From Demequina sp. B12 (lineage in GTDB: Bacteria > Actinomycetota > Actinomycetes > Actinomycetales > Demequinaceae): a stretch of DNA of 64,000 nt. This document shows positions 1,915 to 7,752 of the stretch, piece by piece. Location of the stretch: the NCBI RefSeq assembly GCF_028823635.1, contig NZ_JAPEHU010000001.1, positions 682,001 through 746,000 on the forward strand, written 5' to 3'. The notes below the pieces were generated by a model. That model ran no database searches. It had not been told where the DNA came from and worked only from the letters and a program-made list of their open reading frames with translations. The number at the start of each line of letters is the position of its first letter. Positions within the stretch are counted from its first letter, which is position 1. The position numbers were made by a program, and so were the translations under genes.

Positions 1915-3212
<1,298 letters not shown>

Positions 3213-3213
<1 letters not shown>

Positions 3214-3779
3214 TGCGAATTGTTCTCCTTGGTCCTCCCGGAGCCGGCAAGGGCACTCAGGCCGCACGTTTGGCAGAGCGCTACTCCATCCCTGCGATCT
3301 CCACTGGAGACATCTTCCGCGCGAACGTCTCCGGCAAGACCCCTCTGGGTGTCAAGGCCCAGGAGTACATGAGCGCAGGTGCGCTGGTGCCGGACGAGAT
3401 TACGAACGCCATGGTGCGGGACCGCCTCGCTCAGGATGACGTTGTCGACGGGTTCCTGCTTGACGGCTACCCCCGCAACCCCGACCAGGCTGTGGTGCTT
3501 GACGGCATGCTTGCTGACCTTGGCGTGAAGCTGGATGTCGCGATTGAGATCACGGCGGACTCGGACGAGGTCACTCAGCGACTGTTGAAGCGTGCCGAGA
3601 TCGAGGGCCGTGCGGACGACACTGAACCAGTGATCCGCAAGCGCCTTGAGGTCTACGCCACGCAGACCGCCCCGTTGACGGCGTTCTTTGAGGGCCGTGG
3701 CCTGCTGGTGCAGGTCGACGGTTTGGGCGACATCGACGAGGTCACCGAACGCATCGTTTCCTCTGTCGAGTCCCGCTAA
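3213..3779 (+). CDS. adk: Adenylate kinase
   Basis: Catalyses ATP + AMP to 2 ADP in the cytoplasm. The P-loop GPPGAGKGTQA is at residues 7-17, the AMP-binding STGDIFR follows, and GFLLDGYPRN is the conserved lid-side motif. With 188 residues it is the short form without the long LID insertion, as usual in Actinobacteria. The start codon overlaps the secY stop, so secY-adk-map is one translational chain; this order is conserved in many bacteria. Confidence 0.97.
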
Positions 3780-3799
3780 GACAGCGAAGCGCAGTACCC

Positions 3800-4609
3800 A
3801 TGGCCGACCGTATTGAGTACAAGACCCGCGAGCAGATGCGGATCATGGCTCAAGTTGGCGTGATCGTCGAGAAAGCCCTCGCTGCTGCGCGGGAAGCGGC
3901 GGTAGTAGGTGCTACGACGAAGCAGGTCGACGCGGCTGCCGCTCAGGTGATCGCTGACGCTGGTGCCACGTCCAACTTCCTGGGCTATCACGGTTTTCCC
4001 GCCACCGCGTGCGTGTCGGTCAACGAGGAGATCGTCCACGGCATCCCCGGTGACCGCGTCTTGCATGATGGCGACGTGGTCTCGGTGGACTGCGGCGCGA
4101 TTGTCGACGGCTGGCATGGCGACTCCGCGGTGTCCTTCATTGTGGGCACGCCACGCAGCGGCCAGGACGTGAAGTTGGTGGAGGATACTCGGCGATCGCT
4201 GTGGGCAGGGATCGCTGCGCTTGCGACTGCGAAGAAACTTGATGAGGTGGGCGCTGCCATCGAAGACGTCTCGGACGCTGCCGGTCTGCACCCGCTCGTG
4301 GGCTACGTGGGCCATGGCATCGGTACGGCGATGCACCAGTCTCCTGACGTGATGAACTACCGCACCAAGGGCCGTCACGCTCGCGTGAAGCCTGGCTTGT
4401 GCGTCGCGATCGAGCCGATGCTGGTGTTGGGCACGGAAGACAGCCGCGTGCTGGATGACGACTGGACCGTGGTGTCGGCGGATGGTTCGCGTGGTGCCCA
4501 CTGGGAGCACTCGATCGCTGTTCACGAGGACGGCATCTGGGTCCTGACTGCGTCCGATGGGGGAGCCTCCGGCTTGGCGCCCTTCGGCGTTCGGCCGGCA
4601 CCGCTGTAG
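3800..4609 (+). CDS. map: Methionine aminopeptidase, type I
   Basis: Removes the initiator Met from new proteins. The 269-residue enzyme shows the pita-bread fold markers: GFPATACVSVNEEIVHGIP, the metal ligands in DVVSVDCGAIVDGWHGDSA (two Asp), the His in GYVGHGIGTAMHQ, the Glu in CVAIEPML and the last Glu in GAHWEHSIAV. No N-terminal zinc-finger extension is present. It lies 20 bp after adk. The following 151 bp contain no gene; a CCCCC/GGGGG hairpin sits before the next ribosome-binding site. Confidence 0.97.
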   Translation: MADRIEYKTREQMRIMAQVGVIVEKALAAAREAAVVGATTKQVDAAAAQVIADAGATSNFLGYHGFPATACVSVNEEIVHGIPGDRVLHDGDVVSVDCGAIVDGWHGDSAVSFIVGTPRSGQDVKLVEDTRRSLWAGIAALATAKKLDEVGAAIEDVSDAAGLHPLVGYVGHGIGTAMHQSPDVMNYRTKGRHARVKPGLCVAIEPMLVLGTEDSRVLDDDWTVVSADGSRGAHWEHSIAVHEDGIWVLTASDGGASGLAPFGVRPAPL

Positions 4610-4760
4610 TCGTAAGAGACCTGGCATCTCGCTGTGTGACACATTGCATAGCGAGTAACAGGACTGTCACTTGAGCGCCATGTAGCGGCAAACCTCCCGC
4701 GATACCTTCAGTTATGTCGACGCCCCCAACAAAGCTAGGGGGTTCGACTGGAGGTGGAAC

Positions 4761-5534
4761 ATGGCCCGGGGATTCAACTATGCGCCAGGCTCAAGTGCTG
4801 AAGTAGAACGCGCTCGACAGCCTGTGGTGCACAAGACTGAACTTGCCGTGTTGGCGGCCAGTAAGAACTCTGTGGTCAAGGAAGCCTTGGCGCGACGCGA
4901 TGATCTCCCGCTCGGTGTGATGGTGACACTCGCTCATGACCGGCACACTGAAGTGCGTGCCGCACTCGCGACGAACCCTCACATCACGGAAGCGATCCTC
5001 GACCACCTTGTGGGGGACCGGCACGCCGAGGTTCTTGAGGGTTTGCTCACCAATCCAGCGCTGCCGGTGGCGCTCGTGGAGAAACTCGCATTCCACAAGC
5101 GGGATTCGGTGCGTTCCGCGGCCGCCGACCGGCTGAATGCCGATGCGGCGAACGCCAGCCCCCGCCACGACGACTCCGGGACGGGGCCCTTGACCACATA
5201 CCACGATCGGGAGAGTGAAGCGGAAGGGCTTCGGTGGCGCAACGCCTCGGAGCATGTTGAGCCTGCGACGCAGGAGCCAGCGTTGTCGACGGACGAACTC
5301 CCCACCGCGCCCATGCCACAGGTAGTGACTGAACCTCACCATGCAGAGGCCAGCGGCCAGTGGATGCCTGGGGGTCAGGAGGAAGCCCCGACGCCAAGCG
5401 CTGAGCCTTCCTCCAACGTGGTGCGGTTCCCGGAAGGAACTGCACTGACCCCACCCACAGAACGCCAGGCGGCGCCGACGCCTCAAGAGCGGCCCACGCG
5501 TACAGCGCCTATCCGAGGCTTCAAGATCAGCTGA
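4761..5534 (+). CDS. LRV/HEAT-like repeat protein A, function unknown
   Basis: The 257-residue protein has two parts. Residues about 25-125 hold three to four repeats of about 23 residues (LARRDDLPLGVMVTLAHD, TEVRAALATNPHITEAILDH, AEVLEGLLTNPALPVALVEK, HKRDSVRSAAADRL). The pattern of VR-A-A-NP, a turn, then a second helix fits leucine-rich-repeat-variant or HEAT-like solenoids. The rest is Pro/Thr/Glu-rich and probably disordered, ending in APIRGFKIS. There is no signal peptide or membrane segment. ATG at 4761 has a strong GGAGGTGG site. Such solenoids usually bind proteins; I cannot name a partner. It is related to the next two genes. Confidence 0.75.
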   Translation: MARGFNYAPGSSAEVERARQPVVHKTELAVLAASKNSVVKEALARRDDLPLGVMVTLAHDRHTEVRAALATNPHITEAILDHLVGDRHAEVLEGLLTNPALPVALVEKLAFHKRDSVRSAAADRLNADAANASPRHDDSGTGPLTTYHDRESEAEGLRWRNASEHVEPATQEPALSTDELPTAPMPQVVTEPHHAEASGQWMPGGQEEAPTPSAEPSSNVVRFPEGTALTPPTERQAAPTPQERPTRTAPIRGFKIS

Positions 5535-5656
5535 TCGCACAACTGTTACCCATCGTTCAACTTTCGCTCACCTGGCCGACAGGCCCCGGCAAGCCGCAGC
5601 GCGTAGCGTTCGAAGGCAATACCAGGTGGGATAGATGAGAGTTGGGGCGGTGGGGC

Positions 5657-6400
5657 ATGGGCCGGCAAGCGGACGATGGTTCGTGGTCGCGAGCGTACTT
5701 GGCGGGCTCGGGCTTGTCGATGTCGAGTCGTTCGGACGGGGGAGAGGACGTCCGCCACATCGCTGAAGGCGCGGAGTTGCCCCGCGAGCGCGTGGTCGAA
5801 CTGGCGAAACACAGGGATGCCAGAGTGCGTGAAGCTGTCGCTCGCAGAGACGACGTGCCGTTCGGCGCCTTGGCTTCGCTCGCCCACGACACCCGTCCAG
5901 CAGTCCGCATCGCGGTGGCGTCGCATCCGCGCGCTGGCTCCACCGTGTTGGCCCATCTCGCGGCTGACCGTGACCCTCATGTCGTCAAGGCGGTGATCCG
6001 CAACCCACGAGTGCCCCAGGATCTCCTCGCCCGGTTGACGGAGCATCGCCGGGAAGAGGTCCGGGTGCTGGCGAGGAAGGTGCGTGCGGAACTCGACGCG
6101 CGTGACGAGGGCGCACCGCAGCAAGCGCTGCCGGTTCCTTGGGTGCGGCCTGGAGTGGCGCGCCTGCACGCATCGGCCGATGCTGTGCCTGAGGAAGCGG
6201 CGGCCCCTGCGCAGGCACCGCAGCGCAGGCACGCGCCGGCGGTGTTGGCGCCCCGTCCCGTGGTGGGGGAGAGGGCAGCGGCACGGCCCGAGGCTCGTCC
6301 CGCCCCTTTGGTCTTTGTGCCGCACCTCGAGGCGAGCACGGCACCCGCTTCACGCACCCGTGTCAGTACGGGACAAAACGGATGTGCCCTCGTATCATGA
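5657..6400 (+). CDS. LRV/HEAT-like repeat protein B, function unknown
   Basis: Paralogue of the preceding gene. VARRDDVPFGALASLAHD matches its ARRDDLPLGVMVTLAHD almost residue for residue, followed by PAVRIAVASHPRAGSTVLAH, DPHVVKAVIRNPRVPQDLLA and EEVRVLARKV repeats. The last about 90 residues are Ala/Pro/Arg-rich and look disordered. The start is uncertain: I give the ATG at 5657 (about 247 residues); an in-frame TTG lies at 5642 and an ATG at 5720. None has a convincing ribosome-binding site. It has no membrane segment. Confidence 0.65.
   Translation: MGRQADDGSWSRAYLAGSGLSMSSRSDGGEDVRHIAEGAELPRERVVELAKHRDARVREAVARRDDVPFGALASLAHDTRPAVRIAVASHPRAGSTVLAHLAADRDPHVVKAVIRNPRVPQDLLARLTEHRREEVRVLARKVRAELDARDEGAPQQALPVPWVRPGVARLHASADAVPEEAAAPAQAPQRRHAPAVLAPRPVVGERAAARPEARPAPLVFVPHLEASTAPASRTRVSTGQNGCALVS
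6170..6183. repeat. Back-to-back copy of the GCCGATGC octamer (palindrome)
   Basis: GCATCGGCCGATGC is a perfect 14-bp palindrome formed by two overlapping copies of the octamer that recurs about 53 times in this window. It lies inside the disordered tail of LRV protein B. A near-palindromic partner without coding function is at 8217-8231. Confidence 0.7.
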
Positions 6401-6448
6401 AGGTGACGGGGCGCCGGCCCCGGTAGACGCCCTCATGGTGGAGGAGCA

Positions 6449-6754
6449 TTGGACGCCGAACCAGTAGCGGTCGAAACGGCCCAAGCAACGCGGGACACGA
6501 GTGCTGATGTGTCCGCGGACTTGATGCGCATGGCCGCCGACCGCGACCCGGAGGTGCGCGCGACTGCAGCGGCACACCGCGAGTGCCCCATTGCGGCCCT
6601 GACCGCCTTGAGCCACGATCCATCTGATCAGGTTCTCCACGCGTTGTTGACGAATCCGCGAACGCCGTCGTCTGTGATCCGTCGCCTCGCGGATCACAAA
6701 GATGAGAGAATCGCCGATGCCGCAGTGCAGCGGCTGCGCAACAGTTTCCGTTAA
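6449..6754 (+). CDS. LRV/HEAT-like repeat protein C, small, function unknown
   Basis: A 101-residue protein made almost wholly of repeats: AADRDPEVRATAAAHRECPI, ALSHDPSDQVLHALLTNP, TPSSVIRRLADHKDERIADA. VLHALLTNP matches VLEGLLTNP of protein A, so all three genes of the cluster derive from one ancestor. It has no disordered tail. I take the TTG at 6449 as start because GTGGAGGAG lies at the right distance upstream. It ends about 15 bp before the infA promoter, so it probably belongs to the same unit as A and B. Confidence 0.7.
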   Translation: MDAEPVAVETAQATRDTSADVSADLMRMAADRDPEVRATAAAHRECPIAALTALSHDPSDQVLHALLTNPRTPSSVIRRLADHKDERIADAAVQRLRNSFR

Positions 6755-6768
6755 CATTCCGGCTCAGT

Positions 6769-6797
6769 TTGAGCCCAGGCGGACAAGCGCGTATAGT
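6769..6797 (+). promoter_or_regulatory. Promoter of infA
   Basis: TTGAGC (6769-6774), 17-bp spacer, TATAGT (6792-6797): a good match to the housekeeping sigma consensus. It would start RNA near 6804, about 50 bases before the infA ATG, and makes infA-rpmJ-rpsM-rpsK independent of the LRV gene cluster. Confidence 0.75.
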
Positions 6798-6854
6798 GGA
6801 ACGTCGGGCGCTTTGCCGCGCCCGAAAACCAGTCAACTAATGTGAGTGGAGTTC

Positions 6855-7076
6855 ATGGCCAAGAAAGACGGAGTCATCGAGGTCGAAGGCACCGTGGTCG
6901 AGGCGCTACCCAATGCGTCGTTCCGAGTGGAACTGACCAACGGACACCTCGTCCTCGCCCACATCTCGGGCAAGATGCGACAGCACTACATCCGAATCCT
7001 CCCCGAGGACCGGGTCGTAGTGGAGTTGAGCCCGTACGACCTGTCCCGCGGCCGCATCGTCTACCGCTACAAGTGA
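6855..7076 (+). CDS. infA: Translation initiation factor IF-1
   Basis: IF-1 blocks the ribosomal A site during initiation and aids IF-2 and IF-3. The 73-residue OB-fold protein has [38 protein letters not shown] and the end [12 protein letters not shown], all standard. I use the ATG at 6855 (MAKKDG), the universal IF-1 start, rather than an in-frame GTG three codons upstream. It is followed by rpmJ and rpsM, the common order. Confidence 0.97.
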
Positions 7077-7138
7077 TCGTCGCCCCCGGCGCGCCCTGAC
7101 GGGCCGCGTCTAGGCACGCCGAGAGCGAAGAAGGAATC

Positions 7139-7252
7139 ATGAAGGTTAAGCCCAGCGTCAAGCCCATCTGCGACAAGTGCAAGGTGATTCGTCGCAATGG
7201 CCGAGTCATGGTCATTTGCGACAACCTGCGCCACAAGCAGCGTCAGGGCTAG
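7139..7252 (+). CDS. rpmJ: 50S ribosomal protein L36
   Basis: A 37-residue protein starting [19 protein letters not shown] and ending NLRHKQRQG. It keeps the zinc-ribbon ligands (C11, C14, C27 and H32), so this is the zinc-binding C+ form of L36. An AAGGAA site precedes the ATG. The 131 bp between it and rpsM hold no gene. Confidence 0.97.
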
Positions 7253-7383
7253 ACACACCCAGAAAAGACCACGTTCAGGCAGCCGCAAGGCAAGCCCCCG
7301 GCTCGGAGGCCGGGGCCCGCACCACAAACCGCGGGAGAGCTTGAGCGTCAGACCTCCGACTACTGAGGAGTAGAAGAAAAACA

Positions 7384-7752
7384 ATGGCACGCATTGTCGG
7401 CGTTGACCTCCCGCGCGAAAAGCGCATGGAGATCGCGCTCACTTACATCTACGGCATCGGCCGTACCCGCTCGCACGAAATTCTCGCCGCTACCGGCGTG
7501 AGTGCAGATCTGCGCGTCAAGGACGCCGGTGACGCTGAGCTCGTTGCGATCCGTGACTACATCGAGGCCAACTTCCAGGTTGAGGGTGACCTTCGCCGCG
7601 AGGTGCAGGCTGACATTCGCCGCAAGGTTGAGATTGGTAACTACCAGGGTCTGCGCCACCGTCGTGGCATGCCGGTCCGCGGTCAGCGCACCAAGACCAA
7701 CGCTCGCACTCGCAAGGGCCCCAAGAAGACCGTCGCCGGAAAGAAGAAGTAA
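7384..7752 (+). CDS. rpsM: 30S ribosomal protein S13
   Basis: S13 forms part of the head of the small subunit and contacts the P-site tRNA and the large subunit. The 122-residue protein begins [20 protein letters not shown], has [12 protein letters not shown], and ends with the basic [19 protein letters not shown] tail that reaches the decoding site. It is directly followed by rpsK (3 bp gap), then rpoA. rpsD is not between rpsK and rpoA here, in contrast to mycobacteria. Confidence 0.98.

Follow-up and report, generated by a model that had tools for sequence, protein, structure and literature searches.

What are the products of the three genes, here termed A, B and C, that lie head-to-tail between map and infA in this Demequina genome (gene order map, A, B, C, infA), and does their place beside infA say anything about what they do? 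Coordinates below refer to the window, the whole 64,000-nucleotide stretch of DNA that was analysed. The map gene was called as an open reading frame at 3800-4609. Gene A (4761..5534, forward strand; an ORF of 257 amino acids) encodes an LRV solenoid with a long disordered tail, as judged from Pfam family PF01816 and AlphaFold2. Gene B (5657..6400, forward strand; 247 amino acids) encodes an N-terminal SWSRA motif, an LRV solenoid and a basic disordered tail; its frame is open from a TTG at 5642, and the orthologue alignment is best fitted by the ATG at 5657. Gene C (6449..6754, forward strand; 101 amino acids; PF01816) has a TTG start and encodes a repeat-only LRV protein with a conserved end, AVQRLRNSFR. 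The start of infA is at 6846/6856. A search of positions 4500-7400 against Rfam returned no structured-RNA match. Elsewhere in the window, the rplO (L15) ORF (1145-1825) has a long Lys/Ala/Pro-rich N-terminal extension that resembles histone H1 tails and is also present in the sister genus (L114:2942-3625).

Repeat family and predicted fold

An earlier note on this DNA had proposed that the three genes are paralogues that arose by duplication. The shared blocks that it quoted were found, and the proposal is upheld by pairwise BLASTP, with E values from 2e-20 for A and B (41% over 91 amino acids) through 2e-10 for A and C (39% over 72 amino acids) to 1e-8 for B and C. The same note had described the repeats as LRV/HEAT-like, and here the profiles separate the two families: all three proteins score above the curated PF01816 LRV cut-off of 21.6 bits (A 25.9, B 27.3 and C 34.9), whereas their scores of 11, 14.3 and 16.7 bits against the HEAT profile PF02985 are all below its cut-off of 23.5.

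In the AlphaFold2 models of A and B, some 120 residues of each protein form a helical solenoid with a pLDDT of about 97, followed by low-confidence tails. The solenoid domain of A (residues 11-131; 4791..5153, forward strand) is supported by PF01816, AlphaFold2 and dN/dS, and its modelled helices span residues 13-131 with pLDDT values of 91-98; that of B (5741..6112, forward strand) has helices at residues 29-152, mostly with pLDDT values of 91-98. The fold of both is thus predicted to be all-helical and superhelical, as the LRV family requires. The models, together with the homology of the repeat-only C to both proteins, bear out the solenoid fold, and models and sequence agree with the earlier description of two proteins with disordered tails and a third that is repeat-only. 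Cysteines are scarce, with none in A, one in B (in the tail) and one in C, and none of the proteins has a cysteine cluster. No signal sequence was seen in A, B or C, and we therefore infer that the proteins are cytosolic. The look-alikes in the PDB are for the most part solenoids that bind proteins, and 1LRV ranks with the best of them; by generalization from other solenoids, a protein-binding role is the most likely one for A, B and C.

Distribution, descent and selection

All 44 Demequina genomes searched have between one and six LRV genes upstream of infA. In total, 130 LRV ORFs were found in the map-infA interval across these genomes, all on the infA strand, and the interval is 0.76-6.8 kb long in the genomes with map on the fetched piece (in the G056 draft map lies off it). 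When the genes are sorted by motifs, the commonest order is A-B-C or A-E-B-C. In the domain tree, C (40 members), D (25) and E (9) each form an exact clade; a gene of G021 that was first filed as B groups with A, and B is a clade once this gene is left out. Each of the classes A, B, C, D and E therefore forms its own clade, which places the duplications before the origin of the genus Demequina. Class C is well conserved, with a mean column identity of 75% over 80 residues in 39 orthologues, and is the class nearest to infA wherever it occurs. The sister genus (G179) has a single LRV gene here, which the tree places in class C. It is flanked by adk and infA, and map is missing from this stretch (L114:5553-5674). 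A profile of C found only weak matches beyond the window's genome in 396 genomes across the phylum (best E value 3.9e-8). In a survey of the order, matches to A at E values below 1e-20 occur only in the two genera that make up this family, the best elsewhere being 1.1e-12; the single LRV proteins inspected in other genera are built differently and located elsewhere. The A/B/C array is inherited vertically with its order kept.

The genes of the array are maintained by purifying selection. Comparison of 13 species pairs gave dN/dS values of 0.07-0.33 for the domain of A and 0.17-0.46 for its tail, 0.10-0.48 for B and 0.04-0.20 for C, compared with 0.03-0.24 for map. These ratios, well below 1, and the presence of orthologues in all 44 Demequina genomes exclude chance ORFs for A, B and C. 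They also bear on whether the array could be a defence or conflict module in which repeat proteins diversified by duplication, a reading that we regard as very improbable. The variable gene number among genomes would suit such a module, as would the fact that phages also encode LRV proteins, and a search of a viral structure library with B did return phage LRV proteins, a kinship of fold only. However, the order is fixed, the orthology is clean, selection is purifying and none of the 44 genomes lacks it; moreover, none of A, B and C has a PADLOC match at E values up to 1.

Class-specific peptides

The array proteins carry short conserved peptides outside the repeats. Orthologues of A begin MARGFNYAPGAS, and most of them keep the C-terminal peptide RPTRTAPIRGFKIS (5490..5531, forward strand; from the alignment), so that A ends in RTAP[VI]RGF, usually RTAPVRGF, in most Demequina genomes. 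The genome of the window contains a single match to RTAP[VI]RG back-translated with CGN codons for arginine. In B, the alignment of 34 orthologues defines the N-terminal motif DDGSWSRAYLAGSG (5672..5713, forward strand), of which W10, A13, A16, S18 and G19 are nearly invariant, and the orthologue alignment also reveals a tail motif, LAPRPVV (6245..6265, forward strand), with the general form LAPRPxV.

The A peptide and gene C tend to occur together (Fisher p = 0.007, uncorrected for phylogeny). Both are missing from G008, G010 and G019; the sister of G008 is the window's genome and that of G010 is G040, and both sisters keep C and the peptide. The exceptions are G022, which has the peptide without C, and G007, G018 and G046, which have C without the peptide. 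In a further five genomes (G001, G004, G012, G048 and G057), which form one clade with support of 0.99, A is without the peptide and C is extended at its N-terminus by a long stretch that starts REPFRGF, RQPFRGF or, in G012, TPFTGF. A relocation of the peptide from A to C would be a single evolutionary event in which the shared element is about four residues, and the RGF in C of this clade may have been gained by chance. Together, these patterns hint that the paralogues act jointly via short peptides. A more specific proposal, that sibling LRV solenoids are subunits of one adaptor complex, a lineage-specific scaffold system whose subunits are joined or addressed by an RGF peptide mobile between them, seems doubtful to us.

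Promoters and upstream elements

The claim of the earlier note that infA has its own promoter, leaving the trio as a separate unit, is supported. The promoter TTGAGC-17-TATAGT lies at 6769..6797 on the forward strand, and a like element, consisting of a TTG-box and a TATAGT-like box with about 17 bases between them and a GC-rich leader after them, is kept upstream of infA in 44 of 44 Demequina genomes. The leader in the window (6798-6845) contains a GC-rich inverted repeat (GGGCG, a T-rich loop, then CGCGCCC), which by eye recurs in most Demequina genomes.

Upstream of A, inspection by eye and a pattern search identified a promoter-like block of the type GCCAYGC..GG.GCAA-N10-TASSGT (4673..4708, forward strand) in the window and in most relatives; it ends in a -10-like hexamer of the TASSGT type, at 4703-4708 in the window, and is located some 84-116 bases upstream of the last base of the start codon. 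The exact pattern was matched in 14 of the 44 genomes searched, every match being at the array locus, and the window's own copy deviates from it. The block was also considered as the mark of a regulon, a reading that was dropped because it occurs only at the array locus and the D genes differ upstream. A CRP/GlxR-like half-palindrome, TGTGA-N6 (4635..4650, forward strand), is weak in the window itself; across genomes the best match to TGTGA-N6-TCACA upstream of A averages 7.6 of 10, against 6.1 in mononucleotide shuffles, an apparent enrichment to which we give little weight.

Position beside infA

Does the array belong to translation? Its products could bind ribosomes, IF1 or nascent chains, with the genes kept beside infA for co-regulation. 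The array adjoins infA in every Demequina genome, C is also there in the sister genus and, where present, C is the class nearest to infA, all of which would fit. The separate conserved promoter of infA, in contrast, argues against this reading, and the setting itself is less telling than the earlier note supposed when it placed the interval inside a highly conserved ribosomal-protein region. The distance from infA to map varies among 29 genomes from 25 other genera, being 87-421 bp in 16 and 884-1310 bp in three; map is not within 1.5 kb in eight, and in two the adk-infA interval lacks it. Where the gap between map and infA was inspected in these genera, it is occupied by unrelated genes. The interval forms the boundary of two operons, at which the position of the array looks neutral or incidental; a position at such a boundary lends no support to a role in translation.

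Within Demequina, five genomes have no C upstream of infA, with infA and its promoter intact, and in G009 C is separated from infA by 4.5 kb. Insertions of several kilobases with genes resembling those for exported proteins are present in the interval in G009 (L035:5128-8728), where one gene matches TIGR04089 (SipW-dependent exported protein), and in G051 (L051; positions 2943-7386 in infA-strand numbering), where the ORFs are similar by eye and one is signal-peptidase-like.

The same family is also found far from the ribosomal genes, since a class D gene sits between pfkB and xseA. In 19 regions fetched for an LRV match away from infA, the sister genus included, D adjoins pfkB in 18, and in 17 of these xseA flanks it on the opposite side; xseA was not seen on the G040 piece, and the G022 piece, which has none of the markers, is a different locus. 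One such gene is G000:C10:840299-840733 (L109:6300-6734), and in many relatives an inverted repeat, TTCAC-N6-GTGAA, overlaps the D ribosome-binding site (L109:6280-6300; by eye). G001, G003 and the sister genus have a second D-like gene, flanked by fumC and pfkB. The variable interval, the location of class D and the genomes with intact infA and no C thus all tell against the suggested link with translation or nascent chains, which we now consider rather improbable. The array cautions against inferring function from a ribosomal-gene neighbourhood.

A proposed adaptor set

Our preferred reading, held with slightly more belief than doubt, is that A, B and C, joined by E in some species, constitute a cytosolic LRV adaptor or scaffold set that is specific to the Demequinaceae and acts together. 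The array would be transcribed from its own promoter upstream of A. Each rigid LRV solenoid would hold a partner protein, while the tail peptides (RTAPVRGF in A; LAPRPxV and SWSRA in B) may dock on another partner or on a sibling, and A may physically associate with C. The array is a tractable system, being made of a handful of small genes that have been gained and lost in nature and offering a defined peptide.

Comparison with known systems

A weak resemblance is to DUF2336 (PF10098), the helical-repeat family to which SpbR of Caulobacter belongs. It bears on a further explanation, in which the solenoids form a cell-organization scaffold that places a signalling or polar protein in the manner of DUF2336. 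DUF2336 matches A at an E value of 1.8e-7 and class E at 3e-6, and A has a weak match, at 3e-4, to the SpbR model of NCBIfam. All of these matches are nevertheless below the curated cut-offs (for A, 31.4 against 34.6 bits and 19.9 against 400, respectively; B scores 10.2 against DUF2336), and the similarity covers about 120 residues, the array proteins matching only the first half of a profile of 262 positions. Scores of this kind, below cut-off, are expected between two helical-repeat families without a closer tie, and we judge this explanation unlikely.

HEAT and armadillo solenoids (alphaRep, the PP2A A subunit and designed armadillo proteins) are structural look-alikes with Z scores of up to 12.4, which for a helical repeat may reflect only a common arrangement, and they differ in the HEAT profile, for which A, B and C are under the cut-off. 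The closest relative by family is the LRV protein of Azotobacter vinelandii (1LRV), which shares the repeat family by the PF01816 cut-off, is the sole PDB match by sequence profile (E value 0.03) and is among the best structural matches to the A model (Z score 11.2, r.m.s.d. of 3.5 over 110 residues). The Azotobacter protein carries an N-terminal cysteine-rich iron-sulphur domain. A, B and C, unlike it, are without a cysteine cluster and so have LRV repeats without being proteins of the Azotobacter type; they also differ in the conserved peptides in the tails of A and B and in forming an ordered gene array. LRV repeats were already known in the 1990s, and we know of no LRV protein with an established function. 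The statement in the earlier note that nothing of this kind was known at this position agrees with the searchable literature, in which no paper on the Demequina map-infA LRV array was found. The LRV repeat protein is a known kind; what is new and previously undescribed is its occurrence as an ordered array whose classes carry peptides of their own.
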